DNA of 43,876 nucleotides from a virus, in IMG/VR virus record IMGVR_UViG_3300010396_000025, positions 1 through 43,876 of that record. The stretch is one strand, 5' to 3'. The notes beneath the pieces were generated by a model that was not told where the DNA came from, did no database searches, and saw only the letters and a list, made by a program, of their open reading frames with translations. This document shows positions 10,312-28,101 of this stretch, piece after piece (position 1 is the first letter of the stretch; the number at the start of each line of letters is the position of its first letter). Both the position numbers and the translations under genes were made by a program.

Positions 10312-10339
10312 AGTCAACCAAAAACAAAACAACAAATTT

Positions 10340-10750: not shown

Positions 10751-10775
10751 ACAAACAAAATCAAAAAATAATACC

Positions 10776-11330
10776 ATGAAAAAAATCAAAAACATTCTAA
10801 GCCTTTGCCGGGTGCTTGGCTTTTTAAGCGTCTGCGCAATCCTGTTCTTTGCGATGCAATCGCAGGCCGCTCAATTCACGTTAGTCAACGGGACTCTGGG
10901 GACCAATTCGACTGTCACAGTTGGAGGAACGAATTATACAACCGGATGGATGACTCCATCCTCGACTAATAATTTCAATCTGGCTTCCGGGATTGGAACC
11001 CAGTCGAACACAAATCAATGGCCGTCGGCCGGATTCACTTCCGTTGGTTATCCAGGAACCTTGTATGGTCCGTTCCGCTGTGCGTCCATTTATGTCAATG
11101 GCTCTGCAACGACCGGTTCGACAGCAGCCACGTTTTATCTGGCAGTGAGTCAGGACGGGGCAAACTGGTCAACTAATTATGCGGCCTTTGCCTGGACTCC
11201 AGGCTCTCCTTTGGTCACGAACATTGATCTAGGTGCAGCGGCCTATTGTTGCATCAATCAAATCAGGAACCCGAATGCCGGCGGGCTGACCAACCTGCTG
11301 ATTGAAGTCAACGGCAAACCCGGCCTTTAA
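10776..11330 (+). CDS. Secreted Asn/Thr-rich protein in the head module, 184 aa
   Basis: The start follows an A-rich leader at 10751-10775. A classical Sec signal peptide opens the protein: basic MKKIKN, a hydrophobic core (GFLSVCAILFFAM) and a QSQA-AQ cleavage site near residue 34. The mature part is rich in Asn, Thr, Ser and Gly, with short strands, like a beta-sandwich (TLVNGTLGTNSTVTVGGTNY, later FYLAVSQDGANW). Its place directly after the capsid genes suggests a capsid or surface protein, but a signal peptide on such a protein is unexpected because virions assemble in the cytoplasm. It may instead be exported to the host envelope. Confidence 0.7.
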   Translation: MKKIKNILSLCRVLGFLSVCAILFFAMQSQAAQFTLVNGTLGTNSTVTVGGTNYTTGWMTPSSTNNFNLASGIGTQSNTNQWPSAGFTSVGYPGTLYGPFRCASIYVNGSATTGSTAATFYLAVSQDGANWSTNYAAFAWTPGSPLVTNIDLGAAAYCCINQIRNPNAGGLTNLLIEVNGKPGL

Positions 11331-11338
11331 AACCGTTT

Positions 11339-11605
11339 ATGAGCGATCCAATTGAAAAAGAGGGTGAAGATACCCTGGAGCAATCAAACGAGCCTGTGGA
11401 GGCTTCCAAGGCCGTCCATGAATCCATTGCGGAGGCTGTAATCAAGATTATGCCGGAAGCTGAAAAGGTGGCCGGCGAAGTCTTGATCCTTGCGATGCTG
11501 GTCGAGTCTGCGGTTAAAAGCCATCTGTCCTCTCACGCTCAGAATCAATCTGAGCTGACGGTTAAAAACGAACTGGCTGCAAAACTCAACCCGGTTAAAA
11601 TCTAA
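11339..11605 (+). CDS. Small acidic helical protein, 88 aa
   Basis: The product starts with an acidic, polar stretch (SDPIEKEGEDTLEQSNEP) followed by a mostly helical region (AVIKIMPEAEKVAGEVLILA) and a helix ending LAAKLNPVKI. It overlaps the next gene by one base (TAATG). No family is recognised. Position between capsid and head-tail connector genes suggests a small head protein or chaperone. Confidence 0.6.
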   Translation: MSDPIEKEGEDTLEQSNEPVEASKAVHESIAEAVIKIMPEAEKVAGEVLILAMLVESAVKSHLSSHAQNQSELTVKNELAAKLNPVKI

Positions 11606-11943
11606 TGTCTGCAATCAGCGACCAGATGATGGAGAACGCCCTTGAGCCGTGGTTTAATCTCCACGGCCAAAGGGTGACCATCACGTCTGGTGCTGATGCC
11701 GGAAAATCTTTCACAGCCACGCTGGTTATTTCTCCTCCGACTATCTTGAACGGAGAAATTGTTCAGGACAATCGGGAGGAGGCTCTGGCGGTGTTTAATA
11801 ATAACAGTTATCCGAACGTGAAGCCGGGAGACTACATGAAAGACGAATCGAATCAGGTTTGGAAGTTCGGCGAACGGGAAAATAATCCGGTTGATTCGAC
11901 CGTGGATTTCAAAATCATCAAAAAAACTACACAGGACAAATAA
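11605..11943 (+). CDS. Candidate head-tail connector, 112 aa
   Basis: The product has beta-strand segments (LHGQRVTITSGADAGKSFTA, TILNGEIV, VWKFGER) around a PGDYMKDESNQVW turn, with a basic C-terminus. Small beta-barrel proteins here in lambda-like order (gpFII, HK97 gp7-type) close the head and join the tail. The call rests on order and size, not on recognised motifs. Confidence 0.55.
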   Translation: MSAISDQMMENALEPWFNLHGQRVTITSGADAGKSFTATLVISPPTILNGEIVQDNREEALAVFNNNSYPNVKPGDYMKDESNQVWKFGERENNPVDSTVDFKIIKKTTQDK

Positions 11944-11944
11944 A

Positions 11945-12199
11945 ATGAAACGATTGACAATTTTTAAGAATGCCAGTGACTTTGCTTTTGCATCCCTGGA
12001 AACGGAAGATTCATTGCAGCTGGACATTGATTCGGCCGCTGCGTTCAAGGCGGCAAATCTTCCATCTGAAGATTATGTTTATTGGAAGCAATGCTTTCAG
12101 CAATGCCGGCAGCAATTCTCAATGCTGAATCAGCAACCGTCTCCGAGTGATCAGCTGAAGGCGCGGGTCGCATCGCGGCAACCCCAGGCTCCGAAGTAA
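11945..12199 (+). CDS. Small hypothetical protein, 84 aa
   Basis: I choose ATG 11945, one base after the preceding stop, rather than upstream in-frame starts. The product (MKRLTIFKNASDFAFASLET) has an N-terminal alpha/beta segment, a helical YWKQCFQQCRQQFSML region with two cysteines and a polar basic tail. It falls between connector and tail-completion genes; function unknown. Confidence 0.6.
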   Translation: MKRLTIFKNASDFAFASLETEDSLQLDIDSAAAFKAANLPSEDYVYWKQCFQQCRQQFSMLNQQPSPSDQLKARVASRQPQAPK

Positions 12200-12200
12200 A

Positions 12201-13007
12201 ATGCTTCAAGTCACCAACATTGATGTCAGTGGAGTCAGCCGATTGATTGGCGGACTCCATAATGCTTTGATTGGGACTGGAGGCAAGGGTGACATCGGAG
12301 ACGTAATCAGCGACGAGACGCGCAAGCTGTCGCTGGAATGCGGTTCGGCCCCAAATGCCCGGCGTAGGAAGAAAATCGAGGCATCAATGCGCCGGGACAT
12401 TGGAAAGGTGTTTATGAAAGCTCCGGCCCATCCGTTCACTGGAACGAAGCGCAAGGGTGATGGAATTGAATGGCTGAATGCCGGCCCAAATTTTCTGCTC
12501 GGAGTCCCAGAAGACCGGATGCTTGGTGATGCCGAGCTTTCAATGGGCGGTGCAAAAAAATTGTTCTACATTGCCAAGGGCAGGCTTCCGGCAGAACGAT
12601 ATGCTGATGGTGGAATGCACGGACAGCAGCACGTCCAGATTGCCAACCGTTTTGTGGTCAAGCGCGGAATTATTTCCAAGCTGTTCAATGAAATAAAAAA
12701 GCGAATCGGCCTCCGTGACGCATCATTTGCCGAGACAGCCAAGAATCTTGGTGGGAATGTTCCATCAACATCATCAAAGCATTTCCCGACCGGAAAGAAT
12801 ATCACGCAGGTTAAAAACATGAGTTCGGCCAGCCCGGAGATTGTTTTTGGTTCGCGGGCAACCGGAGTGGTCGGGCTGACCGAAAAAGTAAAACGTGCCG
12901 TGGCCATCCGCGAAAAGAAAATGCTGCATCGGCTTGGCTTGATTCTATCCGGTTACGCGCGGGACAATAATTCCGGCGGTTCAATTAAAAAGCACTCGAA
13001 ATCGTAA
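12201..13007 (+). CDS. Tail completion / HK97 gp10-like protein candidate
   Basis: A 268-residue basic protein with an N-terminal amphipathic region (GVSRLIGGLHNALIG), conserved-looking RRRKKIEASMRRDIGKVF and a Lys-rich C-terminus. Its order, after connectors and before the tail terminator candidate, is that of gpZ or HK97 gp10 proteins, which complete the tail end before head attachment. It overlaps the next gene by one base (TAATG). Family assignment is by position and general character. Confidence 0.55.
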   Translation: MLQVTNIDVSGVSRLIGGLHNALIGTGGKGDIGDVISDETRKLSLECGSAPNARRRKKIEASMRRDIGKVFMKAPAHPFTGTKRKGDGIEWLNAGPNFLLGVPEDRMLGDAELSMGGAKKLFYIAKGRLPAERYADGGMHGQQHVQIANRFVVKRGIISKLFNEIKKRIGLRDASFAETAKNLGGNVPSTSSKHFPTGKNITQVKNMSSASPEIVFGSRATGVVGLTEKVKRAVAIREKKMLHRLGLILSGYARDNNSGGSIKKHSKS

Positions 13008-13522
13008 TGCCAAGCGAAATCATATATCGGTTGCGCGAGGAGCTTGAGGACAAGGACAGCTCCCAGTCCGGTGGATTGAATGCACTGATTACGGCACAGG
13101 GTTTGGTGGTTTACACTCGAATCAATGCCACCGGAGACTGGTATAAGGAGCGTCCGCGAGTGGATTTGAAATGCTCCATCGGCAATGCCACCGGTCGCAG
13201 GTTTGCCTGCGCGGATAATGTTCCGCGCTATGATGCTTTTCATTTTGCGTTGGCCATCCAGGTGGTAACCGAGCCAAGAAATACTGCGGCCAATAATGAA
13301 CTGCATGAGCAGATGTGCGGAATTGTCCGCAATACAATCAGTTCTGTCGGTGGAAATAATTCGCTGGCTGATGTTTTAAATTTTCCGAATGTGCTGATAC
13401 CTGAAGTTCTGAAGGACTCCGGCGTATCGGATTCTGCGGTGGATGAAAAAGACGGGCTGGAATATACCACGATGTCCTGGGACGGAATCGTGGCCATCCG
13501 TCCAACAGCTTGGAACAACTAA
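13007..13522 (+). CDS. Tail terminator candidate (gpU position), 171 aa
   Basis: The protein has alternating strands and helices (LNALITAQGLVVYTRINATG; FHFALAIQVVTEP; TMSWDGIVAIRPTAW) consistent with an alpha/beta tail-terminator fold that caps the growing tail tube. Synteny is the main evidence: it follows the completion protein and precedes the tail tube candidate. The ending with W-G-I-V strands is common in such proteins. Confidence 0.55.
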   Translation: MPSEIIYRLREELEDKDSSQSGGLNALITAQGLVVYTRINATGDWYKERPRVDLKCSIGNATGRRFACADNVPRYDAFHFALAIQVVTEPRNTAANNELHEQMCGIVRNTISSVGGNNSLADVLNFPNVLIPEVLKDSGVSDSAVDEKDGLEYTTMSWDGIVAIRPTAWNN

Positions 13523-13536
13523 CAAAATAAAAAATT

Positions 13537-13905
13537 ATGGCTGATGCATATAATGAAGGTGTGGGTCACGGTGGCATAATCGTGAACATGTTGAACGGCT
13601 CTGCCCAGCAGGGCGTCGTGATCGACCCGTGGAATCTGGACCCGGAGACAATCAAGCTCAAGCAGCCAGACCAATACGGAACCTCGCAGAAAAAGGGTGG
13701 CCGTATTATAAACCTTTCGGCCACCGGCGAGGCGCAGCTTCCTACGGTTGGGGGACTTGGTGTGGCTCCGCTTCCGCTAGTGGCCGGACAATACTTTCTC
13801 GACCCGTTATCAAATTATTATTTCTGGATTGCCAAGGCTGGTCAGGCTTACCAGTCTGGCCAGTTTTGGAAGCAAGCCATTGAATGTGAACAAAAGTTGA
13901 ACTAA
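13537..13905 (+). CDS. Candidate tail tube protein, 122 aa
   Basis: The product is Gly- and beta-rich (GGIIVNMLNGSAQQGVVIDP, GEAQLPTVGGLGVAP, AGQYFLDPLSNYYFW) and follows an A-rich leader, as highly expressed genes here do. It lies directly before the chaperone-position and tape measure genes, the place of the major tail protein. It is short for a tube protein of this order (lambda gpV has 246 residues), so another tail role is possible. A palindrome copy follows its stop. Confidence 0.5.
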   Translation: MADAYNEGVGHGGIIVNMLNGSAQQGVVIDPWNLDPETIKLKQPDQYGTSQKKGGRIINLSATGEAQLPTVGGLGVAPLPLVAGQYFLDPLSNYYFWIAKAGQAYQSGQFWKQAIECEQKLN

Positions 13906-13909
13906 AAAG

Positions 13910-13925
13910 GTAACTTTAAGGTTAC
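13910..13925. repeat. 16-bp palindromic element, copy 3 (intergenic)
   Basis: GTAACTTTAAGGTTAC, the reverse-orientation form, flanked by G and T. It lies six bases before the next ATG and its AAGG could double as a distant ribosome-binding site. Confidence 0.95.
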
Positions 13926-13931
13926 TCTTTT

Positions 13932-14615
13932 ATGACGGGAATCGCTCTAAATCAAGTCCCCGGTTGGCGCGAGGCGGTAAAAAAGGCTCGCGCCAAGCAG
14001 GAGCGCATTCGCGAGAATGCGTGGAAGAATCTGGCATACGAAATCAATGGATTCAAGGTGCGGCCGATGACCGTCTTGGATTATTTGATGCTCGACCATT
14101 TCGGTTCTCCGTTTCTGTATCGCCAGCAACCGCAACTTTGTGACCTATCCTGGATTCTTTGGGCATTGAGCCCTCAATGCCTGAAATGGAACCAAAAGAA
14201 CATCCAACTCGGTCGGACTCTGGCATCTTTTTTCTATTCTCGAAAGGTTAGTAAAAAACTCGGCCGTGATGGAATCTTCCAGGAGTCCTGCACAAAAGTC
14301 TTTGAGTATATTGATGACATGTTTATGGATGCCCCGGCTGGTATGCAGGGCGGCAAGGCGGCAGTCTGTTATCTGGCCTCCTGGTTTGATATAATCCAAA
14401 GCCAGTATCATTGCAGTGAGGATGCGGTCAGGTTCATGCCGTTGCCGCAGATGTTCCAGAGGATTCGCGCCATCCAGGAGCGCAACGGAAATGAACAGCC
14501 AGCCTTCGACAAGGTTGAAGACCGGTTGAAGCAATTCGTTCAAAACGGGATTTCATCGCGCAAGTTTTCCTACGATGATTTGGTCAATGGAAAAGTTTCA
14601 TTTGAATTAAACTGA
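13932..14615 (+). CDS. Tail assembly chaperone-position protein, 227 aa
   Basis: A mostly helical protein containing INGFKVRPMTVLDYLMLDHF, a pattern like tail assembly chaperones in which a tail-binding motif precedes a helical bundle. It sits between tail tube and tape measure. Chaperone genes usually produce a second form by frameshift, but I see no convincing slippery heptamer near the end. The stop overlaps the tape measure start (TGATG). Confidence 0.55.
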   Translation: MTGIALNQVPGWREAVKKARAKQERIRENAWKNLAYEINGFKVRPMTVLDYLMLDHFGSPFLYRQQPQLCDLSWILWALSPQCLKWNQKNIQLGRTLASFFYSRKVSKKLGRDGIFQESCTKVFEYIDDMFMDAPAGMQGGKAAVCYLASWFDIIQSQYHCSEDAVRFMPLPQMFQRIRAIQERNGNEQPAFDKVEDRLKQFVQNGISSRKFSYDDLVNGKVSFELN

Positions 14616-15904
14616 TGACCACCGAACAAATATTGATTCGCATGGGAGTTGATGCCAAGGCCGTCGTGGTCGGGCTCAACAAGGTCTCGGCTTATGTGAA
14701 GGCATGGGGAACCGGATTGGCTTCCAGCCTGAAAAGCTCTTTTGGAAAGTTTCTCATTCCAGCTCTGGCGGTTGGCGCATTTGTAAAGCTGCTGTCCTCC
14801 ATCAAGGACAAGATAATCGAAATCAAAAACCTTTCCTATGAAACCGGAGCCAGCACGAATTTTATCCAGTCAATAATGATGGCGGCAGAGCGCGCAGGAA
14901 TGAGCGTGACCGCATTCACAGAACCGTTGAAGAAATTAAACGCCCTGATTGGTGATGCCAAGCGAGGGATGCCGGATGCGGCCATCAAGCTGCATGATTT
15001 GGGAATCGTAACCAAGGCAAATGAGATTAAGACGCTTTCCCTGAATTCTGCGCTGGCCAAACTTGCTGACAAGTATCGTGCAACCGGAGACGCCCAGCTT
15101 CGGGCAAATCTTTTAGAGCGCGCTGGTCTCGACCAGGGATTCGGAAAGGTTCTGGAAGGTGGTTCTGCCGGCATCAATTCAATGAACAGCTTTAATCCGT
15201 TCACAAAGATTTCCGCCGGGGCGATTGGGGATTTTGGCGATGCCTGGAAAGGAATCAAGGCGACCACCGGAGTGGTTTTGGCGACCGTGGCAAACATTAT
15301 TGATTTGCCTGCACTTGGGGTCAGAAAGTTGTCGCAATTTTTCGGAGCATTATCCGGCGGCGCGCGTTCATTGAAAGACATCGGAAAATCAATGTCTGAG
15401 GCCGAGGAGAAAAGAAAAGATGAGGCGGCAGAAGCTGCATTGCAGAATCAGGCTGACCAGGAGGGGATTTCTGTCCAGGAGAAAAAGGCTCAAATCATAA
15501 CGACCCAAAATGAACTGCTTTTGCGCCAGAAAGAATTGACTGCCGAGATTTCCGACAGGAACAAGACTTCGATTCAAGAAATGGCTGACCATGCGCGGAA
15601 GTTTCTTGGAATAATTGACCCGAAGCGTTTGAACTTTACCGTCTCGCAACGCGACCGCATGGCGCTGAACATTGACCAGAAAGAAAAGCAGGCTCAGGTG
15701 GCTTTCGAGCGCGGGGATGACAGGACATTCCGTCGCCTGACTTCCGAGGCATTGCAATTGCGGCATGGATTTTCTGCGGCTTCATTCAAAGACCGCGAGC
15801 CGATGCTGAAGACTGAAATCGAATTGCAGAAGGTGAATCTTCAGCTTGCGCCGGTTGCACGCATGGCCGAGTTCGTCAACCAGGAGCATAAGACACCAAA
15901 ATGA
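14615..15904 (+). CDS. Tape measure protein, 429 aa
   Basis: The N-terminus (RMGVDAKAVVVGLNKVSAYV) is typical of tape measure proteins. It is followed by hydrophobic segments (FLIPALAVGAFVKLL and TTGVVLATVANIIDLP) and a long charged helical C-terminal half (MSEAEEKRKDEAAEAALQNQ). Tape measures set tail length at roughly 0.15 nm per residue, so about 60-65 nm is predicted, a short siphovirus tail. It may also act during DNA entry. Overlaps both neighbours. Confidence 0.75.
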   Translation: MTTEQILIRMGVDAKAVVVGLNKVSAYVKAWGTGLASSLKSSFGKFLIPALAVGAFVKLLSSIKDKIIEIKNLSYETGASTNFIQSIMMAAERAGMSVTAFTEPLKKLNALIGDAKRGMPDAAIKLHDLGIVTKANEIKTLSLNSALAKLADKYRATGDAQLRANLLERAGLDQGFGKVLEGGSAGINSMNSFNPFTKISAGAIGDFGDAWKGIKATTGVVLATVANIIDLPALGVRKLSQFFGALSGGARSLKDIGKSMSEAEEKRKDEAAEAALQNQADQEGISVQEKKAQIITTQNELLLRQKELTAEISDRNKTSIQEMADHARKFLGIIDPKRLNFTVSQRDRMALNIDQKEKQAQVAFERGDDRTFRRLTSEALQLRHGFSAASFKDREPMLKTEIELQKVNLQLAPVARMAEFVNQEHKTPK

Positions 15905-16818
15905 ACGCTCCATATACAGGCGGATTTGCGCCAGGCAATCTTCAGTTTGCCGTGGATGGGGATTTTTATTCCTGCGACCCATGCGGGCCTCCGAAAATCA
16001 CTTTCCCGATGAAGGGGGATTCGGCTTTCAGCAACGCCGACGCGATATTCCTTTCTGGCGGGAATTATATTCCGTTCCCGCTCGGTTCATATCCGAATTT
16101 ACAACCGTGGTCGGCCACCCAGCAGACATTTATAATCGAGCAGGAATTCATGGTGGCAATGGAGGCTTATCAGCCGCTTCCGCTGAACTCTCCGTATCAG
16201 TGGCAATGGGCAATCGGCTGGCAATCACAGCTGACCAATGGTCGGTCAATTCCAGAATTATTTTATGCTGTCTTGGTCGAGGAGGGTCCAACCGAGGATG
16301 CCGGGCAAGGTATAATCAAACTTACCCGCAGGTTTGCGATTGTTCCGTTTACCAGAAATGAGATTGAACAATTTACTTACACATATCCCGGAATTGCCAA
16401 CGGCCGCTTGATGCGGAGCATTACGGTTCAGTCCCGACTGCAATACGATTATTTTATTTTTGATGACGCTGGAATTTATCCATATAGCGCGCCGTTTCCA
16501 TCTGGCTCGGTTTTGAATACATCCACCGGACTTTATCCAGTCGGCTTGATTCTCCAGCCTCAATACTATTATGCGCCGGTTGCCGATGCAGTTGCCCAGA
16601 ATTATTTTCTGCCGCCGGACACGGTTATCATTTCAGATGCTGATGTTGATGCCGGAACTCCGGCCAGCATCCCATCGGCAAGCGATTGGCTGAATTGGAT
16701 TTCCGGTGCCGGAACTTCCAATGGACTTGTTCCGGAAATCGTGGCTGAAGCATCAACCATGCGGCGCTGGATGGGCAACATTTGGGAGCGGCGGACAAGA
16801 TTCGTGCAGGTGATATGA
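15901..16818 (+). CDS. Distal tail protein candidate, 305 aa
   Basis: A Pro/Tyr/Phe-rich beta protein without helices of note (GGFAPGNLQFAVDGDFYSC; YQWQWAIGWQSQL) follows the tape measure with an ATGA overlap. Genes at this position form the tail tip, such as distal tail or hub proteins. I recognise no family. Together with the next two genes it forms a coupled three-gene block, suggesting one assembly. Confidence 0.5.
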   Translation: MNAPYTGGFAPGNLQFAVDGDFYSCDPCGPPKITFPMKGDSAFSNADAIFLSGGNYIPFPLGSYPNLQPWSATQQTFIIEQEFMVAMEAYQPLPLNSPYQWQWAIGWQSQLTNGRSIPELFYAVLVEEGPTEDAGQGIIKLTRRFAIVPFTRNEIEQFTYTYPGIANGRLMRSITVQSRLQYDYFIFDDAGIYPYSAPFPSGSVLNTSTGLYPVGLILQPQYYYAPVADAVAQNYFLPPDTVIISDADVDAGTPASIPSASDWLNWISGAGTSNGLVPEIVAEASTMRRWMGNIWERRTRFVQVI

Positions 16819-17411
16819 ACAACCGCAAAACAAAATTTCTTGAGCCGCTGAAATCCGTCATGGATTTTCAGGGGCAGCAGCAAATGTTGGCTGCGGTCAA
16901 TTCACTGCTGAACGGTAGGATGACCAACGGGCAGGTGATTTATTCCGACTCGAATGTGGTTTGGGACAATCAAGCATCCGGCTCGAAACAGGATTTTGTA
17001 ATCGTTTCAGATGGCGGCGATTGGTATAACTGCAACATGTTTGACGGTGTGAATCCGTCTGGCGGAATCGTAAAGGTAGCCAAGCATCAAGATATTCGTT
17101 GCATCCTTCCAACTGCCAGCCCGGCCGGCGGCGCATGGCCATCCAAGACGATTCGTGGAATCACTTACACTTACACCTACAACGCCGTAGCTGGGTCAAC
17201 TACTGACGGAGTAAATGTGGTTGAATATACCCGCGATGTCACAGGTTCTGATTCGTCTTCGGAAACGGATTATATTACTCCGTGTCTGAATGTCGGTGAT
17301 ATAATCTCTGCGCTTCCGGCTTCATTTGCCGGACCAGCCACATTGGTCGGTGTGGCTTGGCAGGCAATGGCAGATGGCCGCGCATGGGCTGCTCAAGTTC
17401 CACCAGTATGA
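16815..17411 (+). CDS. Tail-tip protein candidate, 198 aa
   Basis: ATG 16815 overlaps the previous stop and is preferred to the longer in-frame start at 16782. The product begins MNNRKTKFLEPLKSVMDFQG, then is beta-rich with Gly/Asp turns (IVSDGGDWYNCNMFDGV) and Thr/Tyr runs (YTYTYNAVAGSTTDG). No family is recognised; its place suggests a tail-tip or baseplate component. Confidence 0.5.
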   Translation: MNNRKTKFLEPLKSVMDFQGQQQMLAAVNSLLNGRMTNGQVIYSDSNVVWDNQASGSKQDFVIVSDGGDWYNCNMFDGVNPSGGIVKVAKHQDIRCILPTASPAGGAWPSKTIRGITYTYTYNAVAGSTTDGVNVVEYTRDVTGSDSSSETDYITPCLNVGDIISALPASFAGPATLVGVAWQAMADGRAWAAQVPPV

Positions 17412-18016
17412 ACGAAAACTTTCAGCAATCCGGCTGCCAAAATTTTAATCAAAGCCTTTGCCAAAACAGGCAGTCTGGAGTATCGGTTTCGACTCCGTTT
17501 ACATTTCTTGCATTAGCAGCGGCGACCTCGGCTGGAGCAACGGTCGGATACGATGGATTGTTGGTTGCGCTTGATACTTTTCATGGTGATACATATAGCG
17601 GAGTCCTTAATTCAATAACAACTGATGGAAGCGGAAACGCCATTATTTGGAACATAGACTGGACAACTGCATTCTTTGGTGACGGACAGCCGCCAGTTGT
17701 GAAATCTGGCCCATATAATGGGTTTTATACATATCAATATTACAATTTTGCGCTTCAGGGAAAGCCGTCAAAAATATACGGAACATTGGCATGGCATAAG
17801 GCTGTGGTATCTCCGGGGCCGGGAGTTTTATATGAGCCCGCCTATTCATCATATCAGGCGGATTGGTCAACTCGGTTCGACATGCAGAACACATCGCTTT
17901 TAGCCCTGCCACCGTCTGCCTTTCTTTACGCATTGGCATTTTGGATTGGAAAGACTCCAGCAGACTTGCCGGCCTCAAATTTTATTTTTGAGGATTATGG
18001 GTTCGGGAGAATTTAA
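17408..18016 (+). CDS. Tail-tip protein candidate, 202 aa
   Basis: The ATGA overlap fixes the start at 17408. The N-terminus repeats CQNFNQSLCQNRQSG, giving two Cys within a Gln/Asn-rich stretch, followed by a hydrophobic Ala-rich segment (FLALAAATSAGATVG) and a Tyr/Trp-rich beta region. It ends one base before the giant fibre. No function beyond a tail-tip position can be proposed. Confidence 0.5.
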   Translation: MNENFQQSGCQNFNQSLCQNRQSGVSVSTPFTFLALAAATSAGATVGYDGLLVALDTFHGDTYSGVLNSITTDGSGNAIIWNIDWTTAFFGDGQPPVVKSGPYNGFYTYQYYNFALQGKPSKIYGTLAWHKAVVSPGPGVLYEPAYSSYQADWSTRFDMQNTSLLALPPSAFLYALAFWIGKTPADLPASNFIFEDYGFGRI

Positions 18017-18017
18017 T

Positions 18018-21000
18018 ATGAAAAAAATCCTTTTACTTTTTGCGCTGCTTTTAATTTCAGTCACGTCCCGCGCTGCGATGATTTCGTTTTCCATGACGAA
18101 CTCAATCACCCTTGCGCCGGATACAAATGTCCTGAAGGTCTTTGCCTGCGGCCCTGTTAATTCTGATGGGTCGGTTTATACCACCGGAGTCCCGATTCGG
18201 ATTCAGCCGGACACCAATGGCTATGCGGTCCACCAATTTGCGCAGAACAATTATTTTGTGACCAATGCCTTCCTTGGGAGCGGATATATTTTTCGTGCCC
18301 CTCTTGATTCAAGCACAAACAACATCTATGCAAGTGCCGGGCCAAGCTGTTTTATTTCCGGTTTGAATTATTTTGTAAACCTTGTGGTTGGAGACGCGAC
18401 GAACCAGGCCGTTACACTGAACCAAATTACGAATGCGACTGGATTTCCGCTGCTGTCTCCAACCCAAATCACTAACATCGCGCAGGCAACCACAAACGGA
18501 ATGACTTCAATAGTCTATTCCAATCCGGCTGCGTTCACATCACCGCAGACCGTGACCGGAATTGTTCAGAGCCTTGCACCGTCTTTTTTGCAGCTTACAA
18601 ACGTGGCGCAAACCCAGGCATCGAACATAGTTTCCGGCTATACAACCACCAACCAATTTGTTGCCGGAACAAACTCAGCCTATGCTTATGCGCAGGCTCA
18701 GGCTGCATCTGCTTTGCAGGGTTCGACCAATTATACCCTTTCGGCCTCGAATAGCCTTTCAGTTGGTTTAACCAGCCTTGTAAACGCCTCATCTAACGCC
18801 CTGGCAGCCTCCCAGACCGCTTCAAATGCCGCGCAAGCCTCTTTAGTAGCCTCGACCTCGAACGCGCTGTGGTGGGGCAAGCAGCCAGCCTCTGGAGTCC
18901 TGTCCAATCTTTCTCTTACCGGAGCCTGGACAAATAATCTAACGGCCGGAACGAATGTGGTTTTATCAACCAATCTTTCGAGTCCGTCAATCGTCTATGT
19001 GAACGTTCCGCTGCAAACCCAACTGACAAATGGGATTACCTCATTGGCCACCACGAATCCGCTGGCAGTTCTTTACACTAATTCGCTTCCGGCGCTGACT
19101 AATGGATTTGTTTCTTCCGGCATCACAAATGGGTTGGCCTCGTATCAGAGTTTGACCAATTATGCTTATCCAAATTCAAATCCGTCAAACTTTGTAACAG
19201 CTTCGATTACGAATGGATTGGTCCAGGCATCAGTCACCAACGGACTGGCAACCACAAACTGGGTGGCGCAGAATTTTCTGACCAATGCGGCTGTGGCCAG
19301 CAATGCTCTGAATTCTGCCAAGCAGCCAGCCTCAGGCATCCTTACAAATCTGGCTCTGACCGGAGCATACACGAATCCGATTGCATCCGGGTTGAATACC
19401 TATCTGACCACGAACACTGGAATTGTTTCAATCAATGCGAGCAACCAGACATGGTTGACCAATGGATTGGTCATTCCGAGCACGAACGGGTTTGTGACTT
19501 CGTCCATAACGAACGGACTGGCATCTACGAATTATGTCCAAAGCTATTCCGATACCAACGGTGCGGCGCAGGCGGCTTTTGTTTCATCCACTAATGCGGC
19601 TCAGATTTACCTTTCCAAGACAAACGGTGCAGCCTATTCGCTGGCGGCGGTCAATCAGTTTTCAATCGGAACAGCCACCAATTTTCTGGTTTGCACAAAC
19701 CTGATTGGAGTCTCCGGCGCAGGTTCTGGAATAGTAAATGGGACGTATCAATTCGACCCATCCGGGTTTGCAAATTCATACACGAATACGGTCAACCCAA
19801 ATGCGATTATTTTGATTTCTGGCGGTAGTTTTTATATCCAGACCAATTCGGTTTCACTTTATTCAGCCAGCTCGGTCAATGGGGCATGGTCGCAAGTCAG
19901 TGGTTCGCTTCCAAATCCATCCTGCGCGTATGGTTCTTATTGGAACATGAACGGAACCATTCTGACTGGATTCATAACTGGAACGAATCTTCCAACTGGT
20001 GGAGGAGGCTCTGGAACTACAAATTTCACTTTAACCGGCGTTGTTCAAAGCTGGACTACGAATAATCAATTTTCGACTTCCGGCTCAAACGTCATAATCA
20101 ATTTGATTGCCCAATATGCTTCCAGCCCGACGAACGGAATCAGCTCCTCGACGGCATCAAACATTGTCCTGAATTATGGCGGAACTTTGTTTGACCCGCT
20201 GAATGCAGCCCTGAACGCGACGAACACCGCTTTCGCAAAACTGATTGGAACTAATGCTTGGAATACTTTAACAAACGGGCTGACGGCCGGAAATATGCCG
20301 CCGTCTCTGACTAACCTGCCAAGTTCGGGTGGTGGCAGCGGCATCCCAACACTAAACGGCTCTGGCACAAATACAACTTTAGTGACTGCAAAAAGTGTGG
20401 CCGCTACGAATCTGACCGCTTACGGAACTGCATGGTTGAATAATTCAAATTTGGTAATTTATGCAGATTCTTCAACTACAAGCTCAAATCAACTTGTTCA
20501 ATCTTTTTCTACGAATAACTTTTTTACGCTGTCAAATTCAGTTGTCGGGGCTGTGTTTGAAACACCGACAAATGGAGACACTGTTACAATAACATCGCTA
20601 GGTTTTTTTAATTATAGCTGGACTAACTCTCCAGTTTCATACGAGATGGATTTGTTTGCAGGAAACTCTGCAACCAATGTTTTAATTTTGAAAACAAATA
20701 TAACATTCGGGCCATTAAATTCTGGAACATATTGCTATACAAATATAATTCCAACCACACTTGCGCCGGGTTCTTTTTATACCATGTGGCTTAACGCGCC
20801 ATCTACAAATACATTTATTGTAACATCTGGAAATCCAATAAATAGTTACTTTCTTAATGTTGGTTCTGCCGCCGGTTATGGTGGCTCCACGAATTATTAC
20901 AATGCCGGGTCTTCTCAGTATGGACCGCCAAACTTTTTGTTTAGCGTTAAAAGACCCATCAACACACTTTCAAATTCGTTTTTATTGGAAGTTATTTCAA

Positions 21001-24000
21001 CGAATGGCATTGGAATAAACACGAATATCTCTGCAGGATTTACACTGAACGTGAATAGCAACATCAACGTCTCGGATAATTATTACATCAACGGCGTGCC
21101 GATTAGCAGTTCCGGGCAGTCTCAAACATTCTCTCAAATTTTTGTATCTGGCGGATTTGGGGTAGCCACTAATTATAATGGAATTTACCAGCTTGAGCAG
21201 GCTGGTCATGCTTATACCAATATCACGACTGGTGCGGCCCTGCTGCTGAAAGGAACTTATCAGCTCCCCGGAACCGGGCCTGATTTTGCCATCATAAGAT
21301 TCTATGAGTTCATCACCGCCTATAATGCCGCCGTTTCCACAAACCTACCAATCTATACCGGCTCGTCTTTGTTCGGAAATTACCTTCCGTATCTTACGTC
21401 ACCTACAAACCAGTTGGTTGTCAGTCCGTATTATGGGCAGAATTCAAGCGGCCTTGGAACAATGGCCTACCGCAGCACTAATGACTTTCTTGGTGCAACC
21501 TCAACGGCGGTGGCCTCGTCCAGCGTGGTCATTTCCGGTTTCAATACAAACATCCTTGAGCATTGGGGTTGGGGTTTCGCCCAAGGTGGCGGCTATGATG
21601 ATACACTGCACCACTGGGTCATAAACTCGACGGCACAGATGTCTTTATGGGATGATAATCGAAACAATATCGGGGTTGTCAACGGTGCGCCGTTCTCAGG
21701 GCTTCCTGGCACTACGGGTAATTATACTCACCTTGGAGATGGTGATTGTTTTGCTGGATACTACTTTGTTCCGGCAGAAAAATATCTTGGTGGAATACCA
21801 CTCGCTTCGAATGCCACCATCGCAGTTTTTAGCACCACCAACCTGGTTCTTGGAACCTATCTGGTTGTCAGCAATTTAATGCCCGAAATTTCTTCGCTCG
21901 TGTTAGCTCCGTTGACCGGCTCCACGGCGAGCCTTTACGCCTTCGGTCAGGACACCGTGACGAATCGTGCTTATTTTTATTCCGTCACTGGCACTACGAA
22001 CATGACCTTTGTAAGCAGCAACACCATCACCGGGATGCCACTTGAATTGATTCAGGGTTCTATTTTTGCGAGTGGCAACCTCTATGTCATCGCGAATGTC
22101 GCGACAAACTTAGCTTACAACGATGTGTATCGGGTGGATACCAACACCTTTGCCGCGACGTTCATTGGAAAAGCCTATGTTCCGGGCGGCACAGAAGGTG
22201 AAGGGGCCATTTTCCATGATGGCTGTCTCGTTTTAGCCGAAGGAGCTACCGGGACATTCTACTGGTTTAATCTCGGGCTGACTCCCGTTGTTGCGACGAA
22301 TGGTAATGTGGTTGTAAATAATTTGGTTGGTGATCTGCCGAAAGGCGGGGTGCTGAATCCGAACCAAGTTTCAACGAATACTATAATTGATGGCCGAAGT
22401 GGCAGCGTTTTTGGCTGGAACAATTTTTACAATGCAAACGGACAGTCTTTCCCGTTCATGGTTTTTAATGTAGATGGTGGCGGTGGTGGTAATTATCCCG
22501 CTTGGGGTGAAGGATTCGGACGTTTTTCTGGCATCACCGACCAGTTGATTCTTGGTTCGTCCAATACAACCACAAATTCCCCCGGAACCGGAAATCAAGC
22601 CTTCGCATTCGGCACTTACTATGGCGATTTCGGCATCAATACCACAAATCCGGCGGCGACGGTGGATGTCATTCAAAAAAATCGCCCAACGACATGGATG
22701 AATCGTCCAGTCGGAATCTTTACTCCGCTTCCAGGTATTGCAACGAATAGCTGGCAGGTCAACGGAACCAACGGTCAGCCAGTGGCCGGAGTTAATTCTA
22801 ACGGAGTATTTTTTGCAAACGGCGTAAACATAACCGGCTTGAACGCCTCACAACTCACCGTCGGCACGGTGCCGGTAACCACACTGCCGGCCCAGACCAC
22901 CAATAATGTCCGGCTGTTAATTTTCACAAACGCGCCCAGCGGGCCGGACTTCACCTATTCAACCAATGGCGCGGTCGTAACGGTAATGATCGCCACGAAT
23001 AAGTTTTCCGGTGGCGGAGGCTCCAGCTTCCCGCTCACCTCCGATCAAAGTCTCGGCGGATATTCGCTGAACAATGGCAACAAAATTCAAGCCAATGAAG
23101 TGGACGCTGGAACGCTGCTGGTGACGAATGCAGTGACCTTCACCGGCACATTCATCGGCACGAATATCGTTTATACGAATACCACGACGCTACCCGCGCC
23201 GCAGTTGAATAGTTCCATCGTGTGTTTTTCGAACGGGGTTGGCTATGTCGTCAGCGCTGGAGCAAGCTTGCCGGGGGTGACGAATCAGTTGGTTTACAAT
23301 AATTCGTTTGACGGTGTTTCGATTGCCATTGGTCATGCGGCTTCGGTAGATTCCGGATTAAGCTCCATTGCCATTGGTTCGACAAGCGCATCAAGCGGCG
23401 GCGGGACATCAGTTGGAACTGGAACAGGTTCATCCAACGGAGGAACAGCCATCGGAAATAATGCCTCAGCTTTATTAGCTGGCACTGCTTTAGGAGATGA
23501 TACAGATGGCGATGACCGTGGTTTGGCGGCTGGTCAAAATTCATTTGGCGACCAACTTTCAGTCGCCCTCGGCTACTATTCTTTTGCCACTGGGAGCAAT
23601 AACGTGGCACTTGGACCTTATGCTCGTGCGGCTGGCCCTTCCAATACTTTTACAAACACTGTCGAAATCGGGACTGGCACTGCCTCATTGCAAGGAGGGT
23701 TGAATTTCAAAGGAGTTGGGCTATTTGACGCCAGCGGTAATTTACAAGACGGACGACTTGGTTCTCCGATAAATGGAACGCAAATTACAAATCTCAACGC
23801 CTCGCAACTGACCAGCGGCACGGTTCCAGATGCTCGTCTGGCCACAAATACCCCGACGCTGGGCGATGTGTTGACGCACTCTGGTGGCACTGATCGGAAA
23901 TGGGCGGCTCCATCCGGCGGCAGTTCGACATCCAGCCAATTCTATCTGCTCACCACAAATTTTAACCTGACGGCGATTGGCGCGACCTTTGTGGCTTCAC

Positions 24001-24359
24001 CATTGCAGGTGACGCTGACCTCGAATCTTTGGGACATTTCATGGGGGATCACAGCGGATGGAATCAGTGGCAACGGGGCATATCCTTTTTCCAAACTGAC
24101 CTTCAGCTCGCCAGTGGATTTTTACAGCGGATTCCGAATGTTTGGTGACAAAATTCCGGTGACGGATTTGCCGATTTTTGGTGCGACAAACAACCTCGAA
24201 GTAGGTAGCACCGGCAACCCTTTTCCGCAAAGTGAAGTCTCGCACTTTCTGGTCAAGGTGACCAACACTGTGACCTGCATTGTGTTTATGCGTCAGAACG
24301 TTTCTGGCCAGAACACGACGAACAAGCCCGGCACTTATCTCCTTGCGAAACCGCAATGA
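18018..24359 (+). CDS. Giant mosaic tail fibre with Sec signal peptide, 2,113 aa
   Basis: The largest gene here. It opens with a clear signal peptide (MKKILLLFALLLISVTSRAA). A beta-rich head region is followed by Asn/Thr/Ala/Ser-rich repeats with ITNGLA-type motifs and predicted coiled-coil stretches (ASNALAASQTASNAAQASLV). The unit QPASG(V/I)L(S/T)NL occurs at about residues 290 and 435. A middle part (about 805-1000) is more AT-rich in DNA and resembles an inserted beta-sandwich. Then come a propeller-like region, phage-fibre motifs (NLNASQLTSGTVPDARL), a YadA-like head roll (about 1760-1875) with repeated S.AIG or ALG, and a compact C-terminal domain. It is most likely the host-binding fibre, probably trimeric. 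It overlaps the spike gene by four bases. Confidence 0.8.
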   Translation: MKKILLLFALLLISVTSRAAMISFSMTNSITLAPDTNVLKVFACGPVNSDGSVYTTGVPIRIQPDTNGYAVHQFAQNNYFVTNAFLGSGYIFRAPLDSSTNNIYASAGPSCFISGLNYFVNLVVGDATNQAVTLNQITNATGFPLLSPTQITNIAQATTNGMTSIVYSNPAAFTSPQTVTGIVQSLAPSFLQLTNVAQTQASNIVSGYTTTNQFVAGTNSAYAYAQAQAASALQGSTNYTLSASNSLSVGLTSLVNASSNALAASQTASNAAQASLVASTSNALWWGKQPASGVLSNLSLTGAWTNNLTAGTNVVLSTNLSSPSIVYVNVPLQTQLTNGITSLATTNPLAVLYTNSLPALTNGFVSSGITNGLASYQSLTNYAYPNSNPSNFVTASITNGLVQASVTNGLATTNWVAQNFLTNAAVASNALNSAKQPASGILTNLALTGAYTNPIASGLNTYLTTNTGIVSINASNQTWLTNGLVIPSTNGFVTSSITNGLASTNYVQSYSDTNGAAQAAFVSSTNAAQIYLSKTNGAAYSLAAVNQFSIGTATNFLVCTNLIGVSGAGSGIVNGTYQFDPSGFANSYTNTVNPNAIILISGGSFYIQTNSVSLYSASSVNGAWSQVSGSLPNPSCAYGSYWNMNGTILTGFITGTNLPTGGGGSGTTNFTLTGVVQSWTTNNQFSTSGSNVIINLIAQYASSPTNGISSSTASNIVLNYGGTLFDPLNAALNATNTAFAKLIGTNAWNTLTNGLTAGNMPPSLTNLPSSGGGSGIPTLNGSGTNTTLVTAKSVAATNLTAYGTAWLNNSNLVIYADSSTTSSNQLVQSFSTNNFFTLSNSVVGAVFETPTNGDTVTITSLGFFNYSWTNSPVSYEMDLFAGNSATNVLILKTNITFGPLNSGTYCYTNIIPTTLAPGSFYTMWLNAPSTNTFIVTSGNPINSYFLNVGSAAGYGGSTNYYNAGSSQYGPPNFLFSVKRPINTLSNSFLLEVISTNGIGINTNISAGFTLNVNSNINVSDNYYINGVPISSSGQSQTFSQIFVSGGFGVATNYNGIYQLEQAGHAYTNITTGAALLLKGTYQLPGTGPDFAIIRFYEFITAYNAAVSTNLPIYTGSSLFGNYLPYLTSPTNQLVVSPYYGQNSSGLGTMAYRSTNDFLGATSTAVASSSVVISGFNTNILEHWGWGFAQGGGYDDTLHHWVINSTAQMSLWDDNRNNIGVVNGAPFSGLPGTTGNYTHLGDGDCFAGYYFVPAEKYLGGIPLASNATIAVFSTTNLVLGTYLVVSNLMPEISSLVLAPLTGSTASLYAFGQDTVTNRAYFYSVTGTTNMTFVSSNTITGMPLELIQGSIFASGNLYVIANVATNLAYNDVYRVDTNTFAATFIGKAYVPGGTEGEGAIFHDGCLVLAEGATGTFYWFNLGLTPVVATNGNVVVNNLVGDLPKGGVLNPNQVSTNTIIDGRSGSVFGWNNFYNANGQSFPFMVFNVDGGGGGNYPAWGEGFGRFSGITDQLILGSSNTTTNSPGTGNQAFAFGTYYGDFGINTTNPAATVDVIQKNRPTTWMNRPVGIFTPLPGIATNSWQVNGTNGQPVAGVNSNGVFFANGVNITGLNASQLTVGTVPVTTLPAQTTNNVRLLIFTNAPSGPDFTYSTNGAVVTVMIATNKFSGGGGSSFPLTSDQSLGGYSLNNGNKIQANEVDAGTLLVTNAVTFTGTFIGTNIVYTNTTTLPAPQLNSSIVCFSNGVGYVVSAGASLPGVTNQLVYNNSFDGVSIAIGHAASVDSGLSSIAIGSTSASSGGGTSVGTGTGSSNGGTAIGNNASALLAGTALGDDTDGDDRGLAAGQNSFGDQLSVALGYYSFATGSNNVALGPYARAAGPSNTFTNTVEIGTGTASLQGGLNFKGVGLFDASGNLQDGRLGSPINGTQITNLNASQLTSGTVPDARLATNTPTLGDVLTHSGGTDRKWAAPSGGSSTSSQFYLLTTNFNLTAIGATFVASPLQVTLTSNLWDISWGITADGISGNGAYPFSKLTFSSPVDFYSGFRMFGDKIPVTDLPIFGATNNLEVGSTGNPFPQSEVSHFLVKVTNTVTCIVFMRQNVSGQNTTNKPGTYLLAKPQ
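18879..18940 (+). repeat. Internal fibre repeat, unit 1
   Basis: DNA encoding KQPASGVLSNLSLTGAWTN. It is largely repeated about 440 bp downstream at 19319-19380, showing that the fibre shaft grew by module duplication. Confidence 0.7.
19319..19380 (+). repeat. Internal fibre repeat, unit 2
   Basis: Second copy of the module, encoding KQPASGILTNLALTGAYTN. It begins with the same AAGCAGCCAGCCTC bases as unit 1 and then diverges mostly at third codon positions. Confidence 0.7.
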
Positions 24360-26767
24360 AGTTCTCGTTATCCATTTTTATTTTTGCCCTGATTGGTCTG
24401 ACCGCCTCGGCCCAGACTTCGTTGAACGTCACCAACTACGGCGCGACTGGTGATGCCGTCCAGTTCTACGTCAACACAGTGAGCAATTCGGTGATCGTGA
24501 ATCCGTCCGGCACGAATGTCTTTTCCAGTGCGGACATCGGCAAGACGATTGAGATATTCGGTGTCGGTAATCCAACAGTCGGTCCGGACACGGTTCTCGG
24601 CTATACGGATATTGGGAACTGGACGCCACTCGGCAGCGATTTGTTTGCAACGATTGTTTCGGTGGACACTACCGGAACAAACATCACTCTGCATAACGAT
24701 GGCTCAGGAACAAATTTGACGGTCGGAATTTATTCCGGGACGCCGGGCCACCTCGCCACGATGACGACGAATTACGTTGGGAAGGTGATGGACATAGTTC
24801 AGGGCCAAGCGGTGGCAATCGTTTACAGCAGTTATGTTCACGATCACCAAGACTTCATCGGCACGGTCACGAATGTTTTGCTGACGACGAATCTTTACGT
24901 CTCGGTGAACACTTCTTTGAATCTCACCAACAAAGCGCCTTCGGCGACCACGAACGCATGGGCAACTCTGGGCACGGATAACACGCTAGCTTTTTCAAAT
25001 ACGGTCATCGCGGCGGCGGCTTATACGAACGTCATCATCAACATTCCAAATGGAAAATATCTCCTGATGCCGCTGGTCAAGGATGGCGTGAACGGAGCTT
25101 TTTACGGTTCCATTTGTCTGAATCGCGGCGGCATGGATTTCAAAGGTGAAAGTCAGTCTGGCACCGTGCTGCTGTCGCGGGGAGCGTGGCAGATTAAAAA
25201 CACCAGCGATGGTTCAGCGTGGAATGGCACGGCGTTTCGCGGATTTCTTTTTCAAATGGTGGCTCCCGTGACCAACAATTATCCAGTCACTTTTGAGAAC
25301 ATGACGTGGGATGGCGGAATAATGCTCGGTAATTTTGGCAGCCGCGATTACCCGGTCAACAAGGTGACGGGCCAAGGCTGGGATGACCAGCACGGGGCTT
25401 ATTTGACCTTTGATTCCACCAGCGCGGGCGGCACGGCGCAGAATACATACTTCACCAACCTGACGGTGATTCACTGGCGCGGAGAGATGTTCAAGAGCAT
25501 TGACGGAAATACGAACGGACACATTCATATTCACAACTGCACTTACACCGATGGCAATGCGACGGCGCTTAACATTTACGGAACGTGGGATGTCTCGACG
25601 AACTACTTCAACAACCTTTTTCAGCTACTCGAATACAACCAACCCTACAGTTCTGGCCAGACGAATTATTTCACACTCAATACCATCACAAATTTGAGCG
25701 CGAATGGAATTTCGTTCAACGGTGGTTCCATCAAAGCATCGAGAACTATAGTGGCCAACAACTCGCTGTGCGACACGAATGGCGATGCGATTTTGTTTAA
25801 CACGGGTGTAGGGGTGAGCGTCATAAGCAACCTGATAAACTGCGCGGCAGCACCGCTGGTTTTTGGAGATGCCGGTGGCGTCGGGAACCTGATTGTCAGT
25901 TCAAACATTCTGATCGCGTTCAACACTTTCACGTCACCTAACGGCACGATTGGCAACTGGTTAACGCTCGGCAGTGGAGACTTGGGAATTGTTGATGGGC
26001 TTACCGTCGTCAGCAATAACTGTCCCGGTGTAACTCAAGTTAATCCGGTTTATCAGCAGGCCGGACTCGTAACGAATGCAGTTTTCCGTTTCAACAATTT
26101 CCCCGATTCAACTCTCGGAACGGTAAATCTGGCCGGTGGCACGCCGCTGATAAACTGGGAAACGAATAACTTCTACACTCCATATGGCATCTGTGGTGAT
26201 TCGGGCGGAACTCCGCAGACTTTCAAATATGGTTCAGGCTTCTCGCCGAACTCTTACGGAGGCTGGAGGATGTTGACCTATGCACCTCTGCAATGTGGCT
26301 ATGATACGACTGGCTACGTTTTTCGTATGGACACAAATCAACCGCTCAATCCTGCTTCCATCATTGTCGCCGACAACACCGGCAACTCGCGTTCGGTTGA
26401 CGTTCTATTCGGGTCGCTCGACTCCAAGCGAGTGACGGTGCCAGCGGATTCAAAAGTCACATTCGACCTGAACCCTGGCAACTACTGGGAGACAAATAGT
26501 TCATTCACGCCTTCGGTTTACCATCTGACGGTGAACAACGGCACCGGCACCGGCGATTACGGTGCGGGGACATCGGTGCCCATCGTCGGCAACACCGGCA
26601 CCGGCTACTGGTCAGCCGATGCGAACATCGCCAATACGGCATTGCAGACGACGACCTACACGATGCCCGCAGCGGACTCCAGCGCAACGTGGAATGACAC
26701 GACACCCGCACCGGCTGGAGGAGTAGTCATACGAGGAACATTCATCGGAAGAATTTCGACGCAATAA
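24356..26767 (+). CDS. Pectate-lyase-fold tail spike with signal peptide, 803 aa
   Basis: After a signal peptide (MKFSLSIFIFALIGLTASAQ), the mature protein starts with LNVTNYGATGDAV, the hallmark opening of pectate_lyase_3/GH28-type right-handed beta-helices. A Thr/Asn-rich helix body has stacked motifs such as ITNLSANGISFNGGSIKAS and a C-terminal beta region. In phage spikes this fold usually degrades or binds surface polysaccharide. No catalytic triad can be set with certainty. It is translationally coupled to the giant fibre, so both likely belong to the adsorption apparatus. The signal peptide is odd for a virion part; a secreted depolymerase is an alternative. Confidence 0.8.
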   Translation: MKFSLSIFIFALIGLTASAQTSLNVTNYGATGDAVQFYVNTVSNSVIVNPSGTNVFSSADIGKTIEIFGVGNPTVGPDTVLGYTDIGNWTPLGSDLFATIVSVDTTGTNITLHNDGSGTNLTVGIYSGTPGHLATMTTNYVGKVMDIVQGQAVAIVYSSYVHDHQDFIGTVTNVLLTTNLYVSVNTSLNLTNKAPSATTNAWATLGTDNTLAFSNTVIAAAAYTNVIINIPNGKYLLMPLVKDGVNGAFYGSICLNRGGMDFKGESQSGTVLLSRGAWQIKNTSDGSAWNGTAFRGFLFQMVAPVTNNYPVTFENMTWDGGIMLGNFGSRDYPVNKVTGQGWDDQHGAYLTFDSTSAGGTAQNTYFTNLTVIHWRGEMFKSIDGNTNGHIHIHNCTYTDGNATALNIYGTWDVSTNYFNNLFQLLEYNQPYSSGQTNYFTLNTITNLSANGISFNGGSIKASRTIVANNSLCDTNGDAILFNTGVGVSVISNLINCAAAPLVFGDAGGVGNLIVSSNILIAFNTFTSPNGTIGNWLTLGSGDLGIVDGLTVVSNNCPGVTQVNPVYQQAGLVTNAVFRFNNFPDSTLGTVNLAGGTPLINWETNNFYTPYGICGDSGGTPQTFKYGSGFSPNSYGGWRMLTYAPLQCGYDTTGYVFRMDTNQPLNPASIIVADNTGNSRSVDVLFGSLDSKRVTVPADSKVTFDLNPGNYWETNSSFTPSVYHLTVNNGTGTGDYGAGTSVPIVGNTGTGYWSADANIANTALQTTTYTMPAADSSATWNDTTPAPAGGVVIRGTFIGRISTQ

Positions 26768-26772
26768 ATTTT

Positions 26773-27042
26773 ATGACGATTCTTAAAAAGAAAAACGGCA
26801 ATGTTTCGCCAACTAAAATTACACTGTTCTGCACGATAGCCGCGACGGCTGCCACCTGCATTATTGCCATGCCGACCGCCCTGGATTATTTCTCAAAAGC
26901 CGCATCTCCATGGACTTCATTGCCAACGAAAATTGACAGCATTCAACATGACGTAAAAATCATCAAAATGGCCATGCCGATGGTTGATTTTTCAGAAGAC
27001 CAAAAGCAAGCAACCAACAAATTTGCCCAAACAAGAAAATGA
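26773..27042 (+). CDS. Small membrane protein, lysis cassette, 89 aa
   Basis: One transmembrane segment (ITLFCTIAATAATCIIAMPTA, about residues 16-37) follows a basic N-terminus (MTILKKKNGN), then a polar helix (DSIQHDVKIIKMAMP). It overlaps the next membrane protein by four bases and starts a cluster of envelope-targeted genes. A holin, antiholin or inner-membrane spanin role is possible; topology and place are all that support it. Confidence 0.6.
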   Translation: MTILKKKNGNVSPTKITLFCTIAATAATCIIAMPTALDYFSKAASPWTSLPTKIDSIQHDVKIIKMAMPMVDFSEDQKQATNKFAQTRK

Positions 27043-27299
27043 AAACATCAACTCAAAAATGGATTTACGGGCTTGGCGCGGCGGCTATCAGCGGCGGCAG
27101 CAGCTCCGTTGTGAGCGGATTGACCAGCATGGGGATTGCGCCGGATAAGTTCAACATGAACAGCACGTCCGGGATGATCCATCTGTTTGCAATGATGCTC
27201 GCCAATTTTGCAATCAGTGGATTTTTGGGGACAATGCTTTATCTGAAACAGTCTCCGCTGCCACCAGAAGATTCCAACAACAATCCGCCCAAGCCATGA
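27039..27299 (+). CDS. Holin-like two-TM protein, 86 aa
   Basis: Two membrane segments, at about residues 8-30 (Gly/Ser-rich, IYGLGAAAISGGSSSVVSGL) and 47-68 (MIHLFAMMLANFAISGFLGT), flank a short loop. A Pro/Asn-rich polar tail (KQSPLPPEDSNNNPPKP) follows. The size and two-TM layout fit a class II-like holin that would open the inner membrane at lysis. Overlaps both neighbours by ATGA. Confidence 0.6.
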   Translation: MKTSTQKWIYGLGAAAISGGSSSVVSGLTSMGIAPDKFNMNSTSGMIHLFAMMLANFAISGFLGTMLYLKQSPLPPEDSNNNPPKP

Positions 27300-27487
27300 A
27301 CAAATCCATTCTCATCGCCTTGGCCATGATGGCTGCTTCTTCGACTGGCTGCACTGTCCTGTCCTATGACCGCGCCATGCCGTCGCTGACCTGGTATTGG
27401 AGCCATGATGCCCGCGAGCAACGCGCCGAGCGCAAAGCCGAGAAGCAATGGGAAGAATCCCTTCCGACCAATTCACCCGCAAGATAA
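27296..27487 (+). CDS. Small lipoprotein, spanin-like, 63 aa
   Basis: A signal peptide with lipobox (MNKSILIALAMMAASSTGC) places a lipidated Cys at residue 19. The 45-residue mature part is charged and helical (SHDAREQRAERKAEKQWEES). A short outer-membrane lipoprotein right after a holin-like gene resembles an o-spanin (Rz1-type), although Rz1 proteins are usually Pro-rich. The upstream one-TM protein could be its inner-membrane partner. Function inferred from topology. Confidence 0.6.
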   Translation: MNKSILIALAMMAASSTGCTVLSYDRAMPSLTWYWSHDAREQRAERKAEKQWEESLPTNSPAR

Positions 27488-27504: not shown

Positions 27505-28101
27505 ATGAAAAATAAATCAATGTTAAAAGGAGTCTTAATTGTCGTGACCATCGGCCTGATTTGTCATGCCGCTTTTGGTCGGGACATCTCTGTTACAAAT
27601 GTTCCGCCGAATCCTGCGCCGTCTTTATCAAGCGGCTTGCAGCAGATTTACGATTCCATCAACTCAACCAATATCGGCGTCGTAATCGGTGGCGGCCGCG
27701 CCACTACCGGCCAGCGAAACCTGGCCTTCGCCGACCTTCTTTACAGCTTCACACCGAGCGTCGGGGCCGTCATCGGCTACGATTATCTTTGGGCTGGAAA
27801 ATCGCAGGGTCACGCATCGCAGGCCAATCTCGTCAAAGGTGGCATCAACCTACAAGCCGACATTTTGCCGTTCAAGGGATTCGGGCTGACAAATGTTGTC
27901 GTCACACCATTCGGTTCGGCAATGGTGGCGTCCGGCAATGGCACCGTGAGCGAGATTTATGCGGCTGGCGGCAAGATTGCCGTCTATTCAAAGTGGGGAT
28001 TAAAATTCAACCTTGGCGCGATGGTCGAGAAGCGCACTGGCTCCGGCTATTGGGATGCAACTTATCCCTGCGGATTCTTCGCCGTCACGAAGGGATTTTG
28101 A
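27505..28101 (+). CDS. Exported outer-membrane-like protein, 198 aa
   Basis: The start follows a leader AAACAAACAACAAAACACC. A signal peptide (MLKGVLIVVTIGLICHAAFG) is followed by a polar stretch and then a region of alternating strands with Gly turns (IGVVIGGGRATTGQRN, VGAVIGYDYLWAG, GGINLQADILPFKGFG, KFNLGAMVEKRTGSGYW), ending in Phe. Amphipathic strands and a terminal Phe are typical of outer-membrane beta-barrels. A phage might use it to block superinfection or assist lysis; neither is shown. Its TGA overlaps the next ATG. Confidence 0.65.
   Translation: MKNKSMLKGVLIVVTIGLICHAAFGRDISVTNVPPNPAPSLSSGLQQIYDSINSTNIGVVIGGGRATTGQRNLAFADLLYSFTPSVGAVIGYDYLWAGKSQGHASQANLVKGGINLQADILPFKGFGLTNVVVTPFGSAMVASGNGTVSEIYAAGGKIAVYSKWGLKFNLGAMVEKRTGSGYWDATYPCGFFAVTKGF

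Follow-up and report, generated by a model that had tools for sequence, protein, structure and literature searches.

Predicted Sec signal peptides are conserved on the outer appendage genes of an uncultured tailed-phage lineage

Tailed phages are, as far as we are aware, held to assemble wholly in the cytoplasm. Among described systems, phage lambda encodes Lom, a beta-barrel protein with a signal peptide whose gene lies between the spike and fibre genes (PMC12309495), and prophage PBSX encodes XepA, an exported beta-sandwich protein of its lytic cassette (PMC6834076). For the cultured Verrucomicrobia phage P8625 (KP792622), SignalP analysis by its authors revealed no signal peptide in any of the 52 proteins (PMC4642752). 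Our survey of the open-licence literature retrieved signals on lysis proteins and on Lom; it yielded no report in which tail fibre, head or spike genes carry conserved signals. The DNA described here (the window, that is, the whole stretch of 43,876 bases analysed) is an IMG/VR virus record from a tailed phage. It shares with P8625, in outline, the order GpA-type terminase, portal, ClpP-like head protease, capsid, tail and fibre, and the two proteases are 36% identical over 169 aa. The P8625 fibre differs in not being rich in Thr-Asn pairs (0.9%), and no match to g12 or to the signal-bearing fibre of the window (both listed below) was found in P8625. The signals are thus not a general habit of Verrucomicrobia phages, since P8625 has none.

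Matches in PHROGs and Pfam to terminase, portal, head protease/capsid and tape measure place the window in the Caudoviricetes; its terminase is of the GpA type, its tape measure is short, and the closest portal among cultured phages is 26% identical. The features considered here are the following.

6006..7727, + strand: portal protein of the lambda family (core, without signal)
7724..10273, + strand: ClpP-type head protease fused to the major capsid protein (core, without signal)
10776..11330, + strand: g12, head-module protein, 184 aa; signal peptide at residues 1-31, C-terminus KPGL
14615..15904, + strand: tape measure protein (core, without signal)
18018..24359, + strand: g24, giant fibre, 2113 aa; signal peptide, then a weakly tail-fibre-like N-domain
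24356..26767, + strand: g25, spike-like protein, 803 aa; signal peptide; 4-base overlap with the fibre stop
26773..27042, + strand: g26, one-TM protein, inner-spanin-like, conserved in L090
27039..27299, + strand: g27, two-TM protein, putatively holin-like
27296..27487, + strand: g28, small lipoprotein-type predicted exported protein (MNKSILIALAMMAASSTGC), by position and size a putative outer-spanin-like protein
27505..28101, + strand: g29, signal peptide and beta-barrel-like body with C-terminal Phe

The head protease and major capsid protein occupy a single 849-aa frame (7724-10273) in the window and two frames in the related contigs L106 and L097. A-rich leaders (AACAAACAAAA) replace the Shine-Dalgarno motif ahead of g11, g12 and g29 (10320-10340, 10750-10776 and 27488-27505). 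A TET-associated glycosyltransferase is encoded at 31237-32007 (Pfam TAGT, E 1.3e-26) and, together with a similar-looking second gene at 41651-42358, suggests modified DNA bases.

Searching IMG/VR with the capsid and portal proteins yielded about 20 contigs of the same uncultured lineage (L002-L010, L093-L107), with capsid identities of 55-64% for most of them and 31% for L004; portals of the distant clade, used as queries, brought in no additional contig. In GTDB genomes, the search for a prophage or host returned distant protease matches only, in Rhodococcus and Sphingomonas. We presume a host among the Verrucomicrobiota, a guess from the Thr-Asn-rich style of the proteins and the HSAF-type repeat in L004.

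The N-termini of g12, g24 and g25, beginning at 10776, 18018 and 24356, had been read in an earlier note as Sec-type signal peptides, and this reading is borne out: MKKIKNILSLCRVLGFLSVCAILFFAMQSQA precedes the predicted cut before AQFTL in g12, MKKILLLFALLLISVTSRA that before AMISF in g24, and MKFSLSIFIFALIGLTASA that before QTSLN in g25. Two further predicted exported genes, those of the lipoprotein g28 and of g29, had been overlooked. Signals were scored by a homemade measure (charged start, hydrophobic run and small-X-small site) rather than by SignalP; on this score the features of a Sec/signal peptidase I substrate, namely n-, h- and c-regions and an AXA-type site, are present and kept in homologues. 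A lone match on such a score is little proof: 62 of 500 shuffles of the g12 N-terminus score as high as the original. Of 928 control ORFs, drawn from 74 loci, in other phages, that encode a related head protease, 19 score as signals (8 at a stricter cut). The pattern across relatives is decisive.

Across the window and its relatives, signals occur on 21 of 22 appendage genes (head 13/14, fibre 8/8) versus 4 of 123 core-virion orthologues on the same contigs. Fisher tests give p 3e-20 against the core genes and p 5e-31 against the control ORFs; these tests count related sequences as independent and so overstate the significance, yet the contrast is plain. All four scoring core orthologues were judged false: the 'signals' on portal and g16 proteins in L100, L101 and L106 were taken as false positives of the heuristic and nonetheless left in the count. 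By the same score, signals are absent from the 11 core head and tail proteins examined in the window, from portal to fibre. The head-gene count comprises the window and 12 other contigs with a signal, near twins L097 and L099 included, and one exception, L006, which lacks a clean signal. The fibres are those of the window, L004, L005/L090, L007, L095, L104, L106/L110 and L093/L109; the L095 protein is counted as a candidate, being signal-bearing and Thr-Asn-rich with homology to g24 not established. Chance hydrophobic N-termini were rejected as an explanation on this comparison of homologues and controls.

The signals themselves have a mean pairwise identity of 20-27%, while the export features and the domain behind them are retained. 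Fibre signals average 20% identity between members and the following 100 columns 29%; in the closest fibre pair, window and L093, both signal and next domain are conserved. Judged from these identities, the signals are conserved as signals, not as sequences. In L004, the head and fibre signals (L004:14817-14910 and L004:15700-15870) are made of a TTCTGCATTC-type DNA repeat (SAFCILHSAF, FCILHSAF) and still read as signals, which on sequence grounds makes this contig a case of repeat DNA giving rise to a signal.

The second mark of these genes is compositional. Thr-Asn pairs make up as much as 13% of residues in signal-bearing proteins and about 0-1% in most others; over 259 ORFs, a Thr-Asn content of at least 3% is found in 24 of 27 with a signal versus 8 of 232 without (odds ratio 224, p 6e-24), and most of the eight signal-less exceptions are copies missed by the score, or frame-shifted or overlapping reads. 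In g24, 92 TN are seen where 28 are expected, and 21 NT. The enrichment extends over 10776-11330 and 18018-26767 of the window and is seen in L093/L109, L005/L090, L004, L007, L095, L104 and L110. Two more small Thr-Asn-rich signal proteins lie at L110:8083-8490 and L111:3368-3874, one of them within the tail module of the L106 phage. This mark suggests that the signal-bearing proteins occupy a compartment separate from that of the other proteins, or are modified in it; one idea is that the Thr-Asn pairs serve as a periplasmic modification site. What the sequences show directly is that the signals are present, conserved and limited to the appendage genes, together with the composition mark; across the sequences compared, the trait is fixed in the lineage, confined to outer appendages and tied to Thr-Asn composition.

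In each of the 14 copies the g12 gene follows the capsid genes, and its product is modelled as a beta-sandwich (pLDDT 75) with a weak likeness to carbohydrate-binding modules (CBM/lectin-like). No match to g24 was found in Pfam or PHROGs. Its N-domain, in a weak model that is poor past residue 97, retrieved minor tail or tail fibre proteins of Gordonia phages and of BFK20 from a viral structure library (Foldseek, E 0.03-0.2), the best match covering about 79 residues at an rmsd of about 3. By eye, the start of the Beenie minor tail protein (MPTITYTLDDGFGTPD) is in register with ATITFALTNSLGQPDTN behind the L005 signal; hhalign of the fibre N-domain against Beenie was not significant (P 0.09). 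Further along, g24 has YadA-head-like repeats near residues 1768-1860 and NASQLTxGTV motifs. A C-terminal YadA-type membrane anchor gave no Pfam match at E 0.1, and g24 was therefore not assigned to the trimeric autotransporter adhesins. The gene next after the fibre encodes a protein whose signal is strong in the window and L004 but weaker in L090 and L109; g25 shows no similarity to the post-fibre protein of L109, and no close g25 relative was found in viral contigs, phages or plasmids. The beta-helix proposed for g25 in the earlier note has a sequence motif in its favour but no Pfam, PHROGs or PDB match. The coupled operons proposed there apply to g24-g25 (ATGA overlap) and g23-g24 (1-base gap), but not to g12, which has its own A-rich leader.

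In the window, L005 and L093 the fibre gene follows the tail genes; in L004, L007, L104 and L106 it stands directly behind the head genes. Fibre and lysis genes are grouped, before or after the tail genes depending on the member; the move of the fibre in L106 includes both the lysis genes and the g29 homologue. The tentative barrel assignment of g29 comes from a Pfam BBP2 match (E 0.036) beside a clear signal, and its homologue at L110:5417-5977 also has a signal. Both end the lysis block, a place resembling that of Lom in lambda.

Export through Sec of the signal-bearing appendage proteins is, in our judgement, very probable from these sequence features, given the conservation of the signals, the contrast with core and control genes, the turnover of signal sequence, the Thr-Asn mark, the lack of a conserved downstream start and the absence of signals from P8625. 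Where the proteins go next is less certain. With a probability that we place just short of even, they are last-added virion appendages that first enter the periplasm and become part of the virions at lysis. Functional Sec signals would take g12 (on or near the head), the giant fibre g24 and the spike g25 over the inner membrane of a diderm host, with DNA-filled heads and with tails still being assembled in the cytoplasm in the usual way. Once exported, the proteins would fold and trimerise in the periplasm; when the adjacent lysis genes opened the envelope, they would attach to the released virions. Export, cleavage, trimer formation, virion attachment and the timing of these steps are what we infer. 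The signals are confined to those parts (decoration, fibre, spike) that other tailed phages attach in the final steps and from the outside, so that a single account of export followed by attachment is the simplest. Against it count the assembly of well-studied tail fibres in the cytoplasm, the hhalign result for the fibre N-domain and the L006 head gene. Stated in full, the proposal is that this lineage completes its virions outside the cytoplasm: Sec would secrete the fibre, the spike and the head decoration, periplasmic modification may then act on the Thr-Asn stretches of these proteins, and binding to the particles would follow at lysis; in this form we consider it somewhat less likely than not.

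The main rival, which we regard as less probable, is that the exported proteins form a non-virion secretome, deployed late in infection to modify the host envelope, block superinfection or free the progeny from polysaccharide, acting for example as surface adhesin or receptor blocker, secreted depolymerase or outer-membrane protein. The neighbouring g28 and g29 are of such a kind, lambda, with Lom, provides a precedent for a single protein of this type (PMC12309495), and the fibre groups with the lysis genes and can sit outside the tail cluster. However, a further tail-fibre gene was not recognised anywhere in the window, which would leave the phage without an obvious adhesion fibre; moreover, g12 is found behind the capsid genes in every copy, and the weak structural match makes the fibre N-domain look tail-fibre-like. 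Both the export and the different mode of assembly offered by the earlier note are viable, whereas its third option, uncleaved anchors, fares less well. Uncut signals could tether the fibres to the inner membrane or lie buried, as a hydrophobic N-terminus, in the virion, and the signals of L006, L095 and L104 are indeed long or lack a perfect AXA site; since most signals have a clear c-region with a classical cleavage site, and the predicted cut falls immediately ahead of the conserved domain, we consider this improbable. SAR endolysins were also dismissed, as the c-region is present and no lytic domain occurs in g12, g24 or g25.

Still more improbable is that the signals are functionless leftovers of captured genes for secreted host proteins, or that translation starts downstream of them. 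Thr-Asn-rich, low-charge sequences such as these may resemble host extracellular proteins, but the signals are kept down to 31% capsid identity despite the turnover of their sequence. As for downstream starts, which the earlier note had singled out as a test along with the presence of signals in homologues, ATG codons do occur behind the signals of the window (codon 21 in g24, codon 27 in g12), but these positions are occupied by different residues in homologues and no start is conserved; in g25 the first ATG past the start does not come before codon 136. Downstream starts were thus rejected as the real ones, and the homologues, as given above, retain the signals.

Secretion signals on outer appendage genes, and not on core genes, would either break the rule of cytoplasmic assembly or reveal a large phage-coded secretome. 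The prediction is that the mature N-termini occur, free of the signal, on virions, in the periplasm or in the medium; detection of processed appendages on virions would make the trait categorically new. For uncultured phages of diderm hosts, the way fibres and depolymerases are annotated would be affected too.

Parts of this arrangement are reminiscent of known systems. The Gordonia phages Beenie, MichaelScott and Dorito have a head protease 33% identical to that of the window and a fibre N-domain of weakly similar predicted fold, but the Beenie minor tail protein 27 starts straight at that domain, without a signal. YadA-type trimeric autotransporter adhesins share with g24 a Sec signal, YadA-head-like repeats and a long fibre; g24 differs in being phage-encoded and in having no detected C-terminal membrane anchor. 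XepA is a prophage-coded exported beta-sandwich protein, to which the g12 fold is weakly matched; the TM-score is low (0.35), and g12 is located in the head module with a Sec signal. Lom and similar phage outer-membrane proteins resemble g29 in their signal, their position beside fibre genes and, tentatively, their beta-barrel body; Lom, however, is a single accessory protein, whereas in the window the signals are carried by head, fibre and spike proteins.
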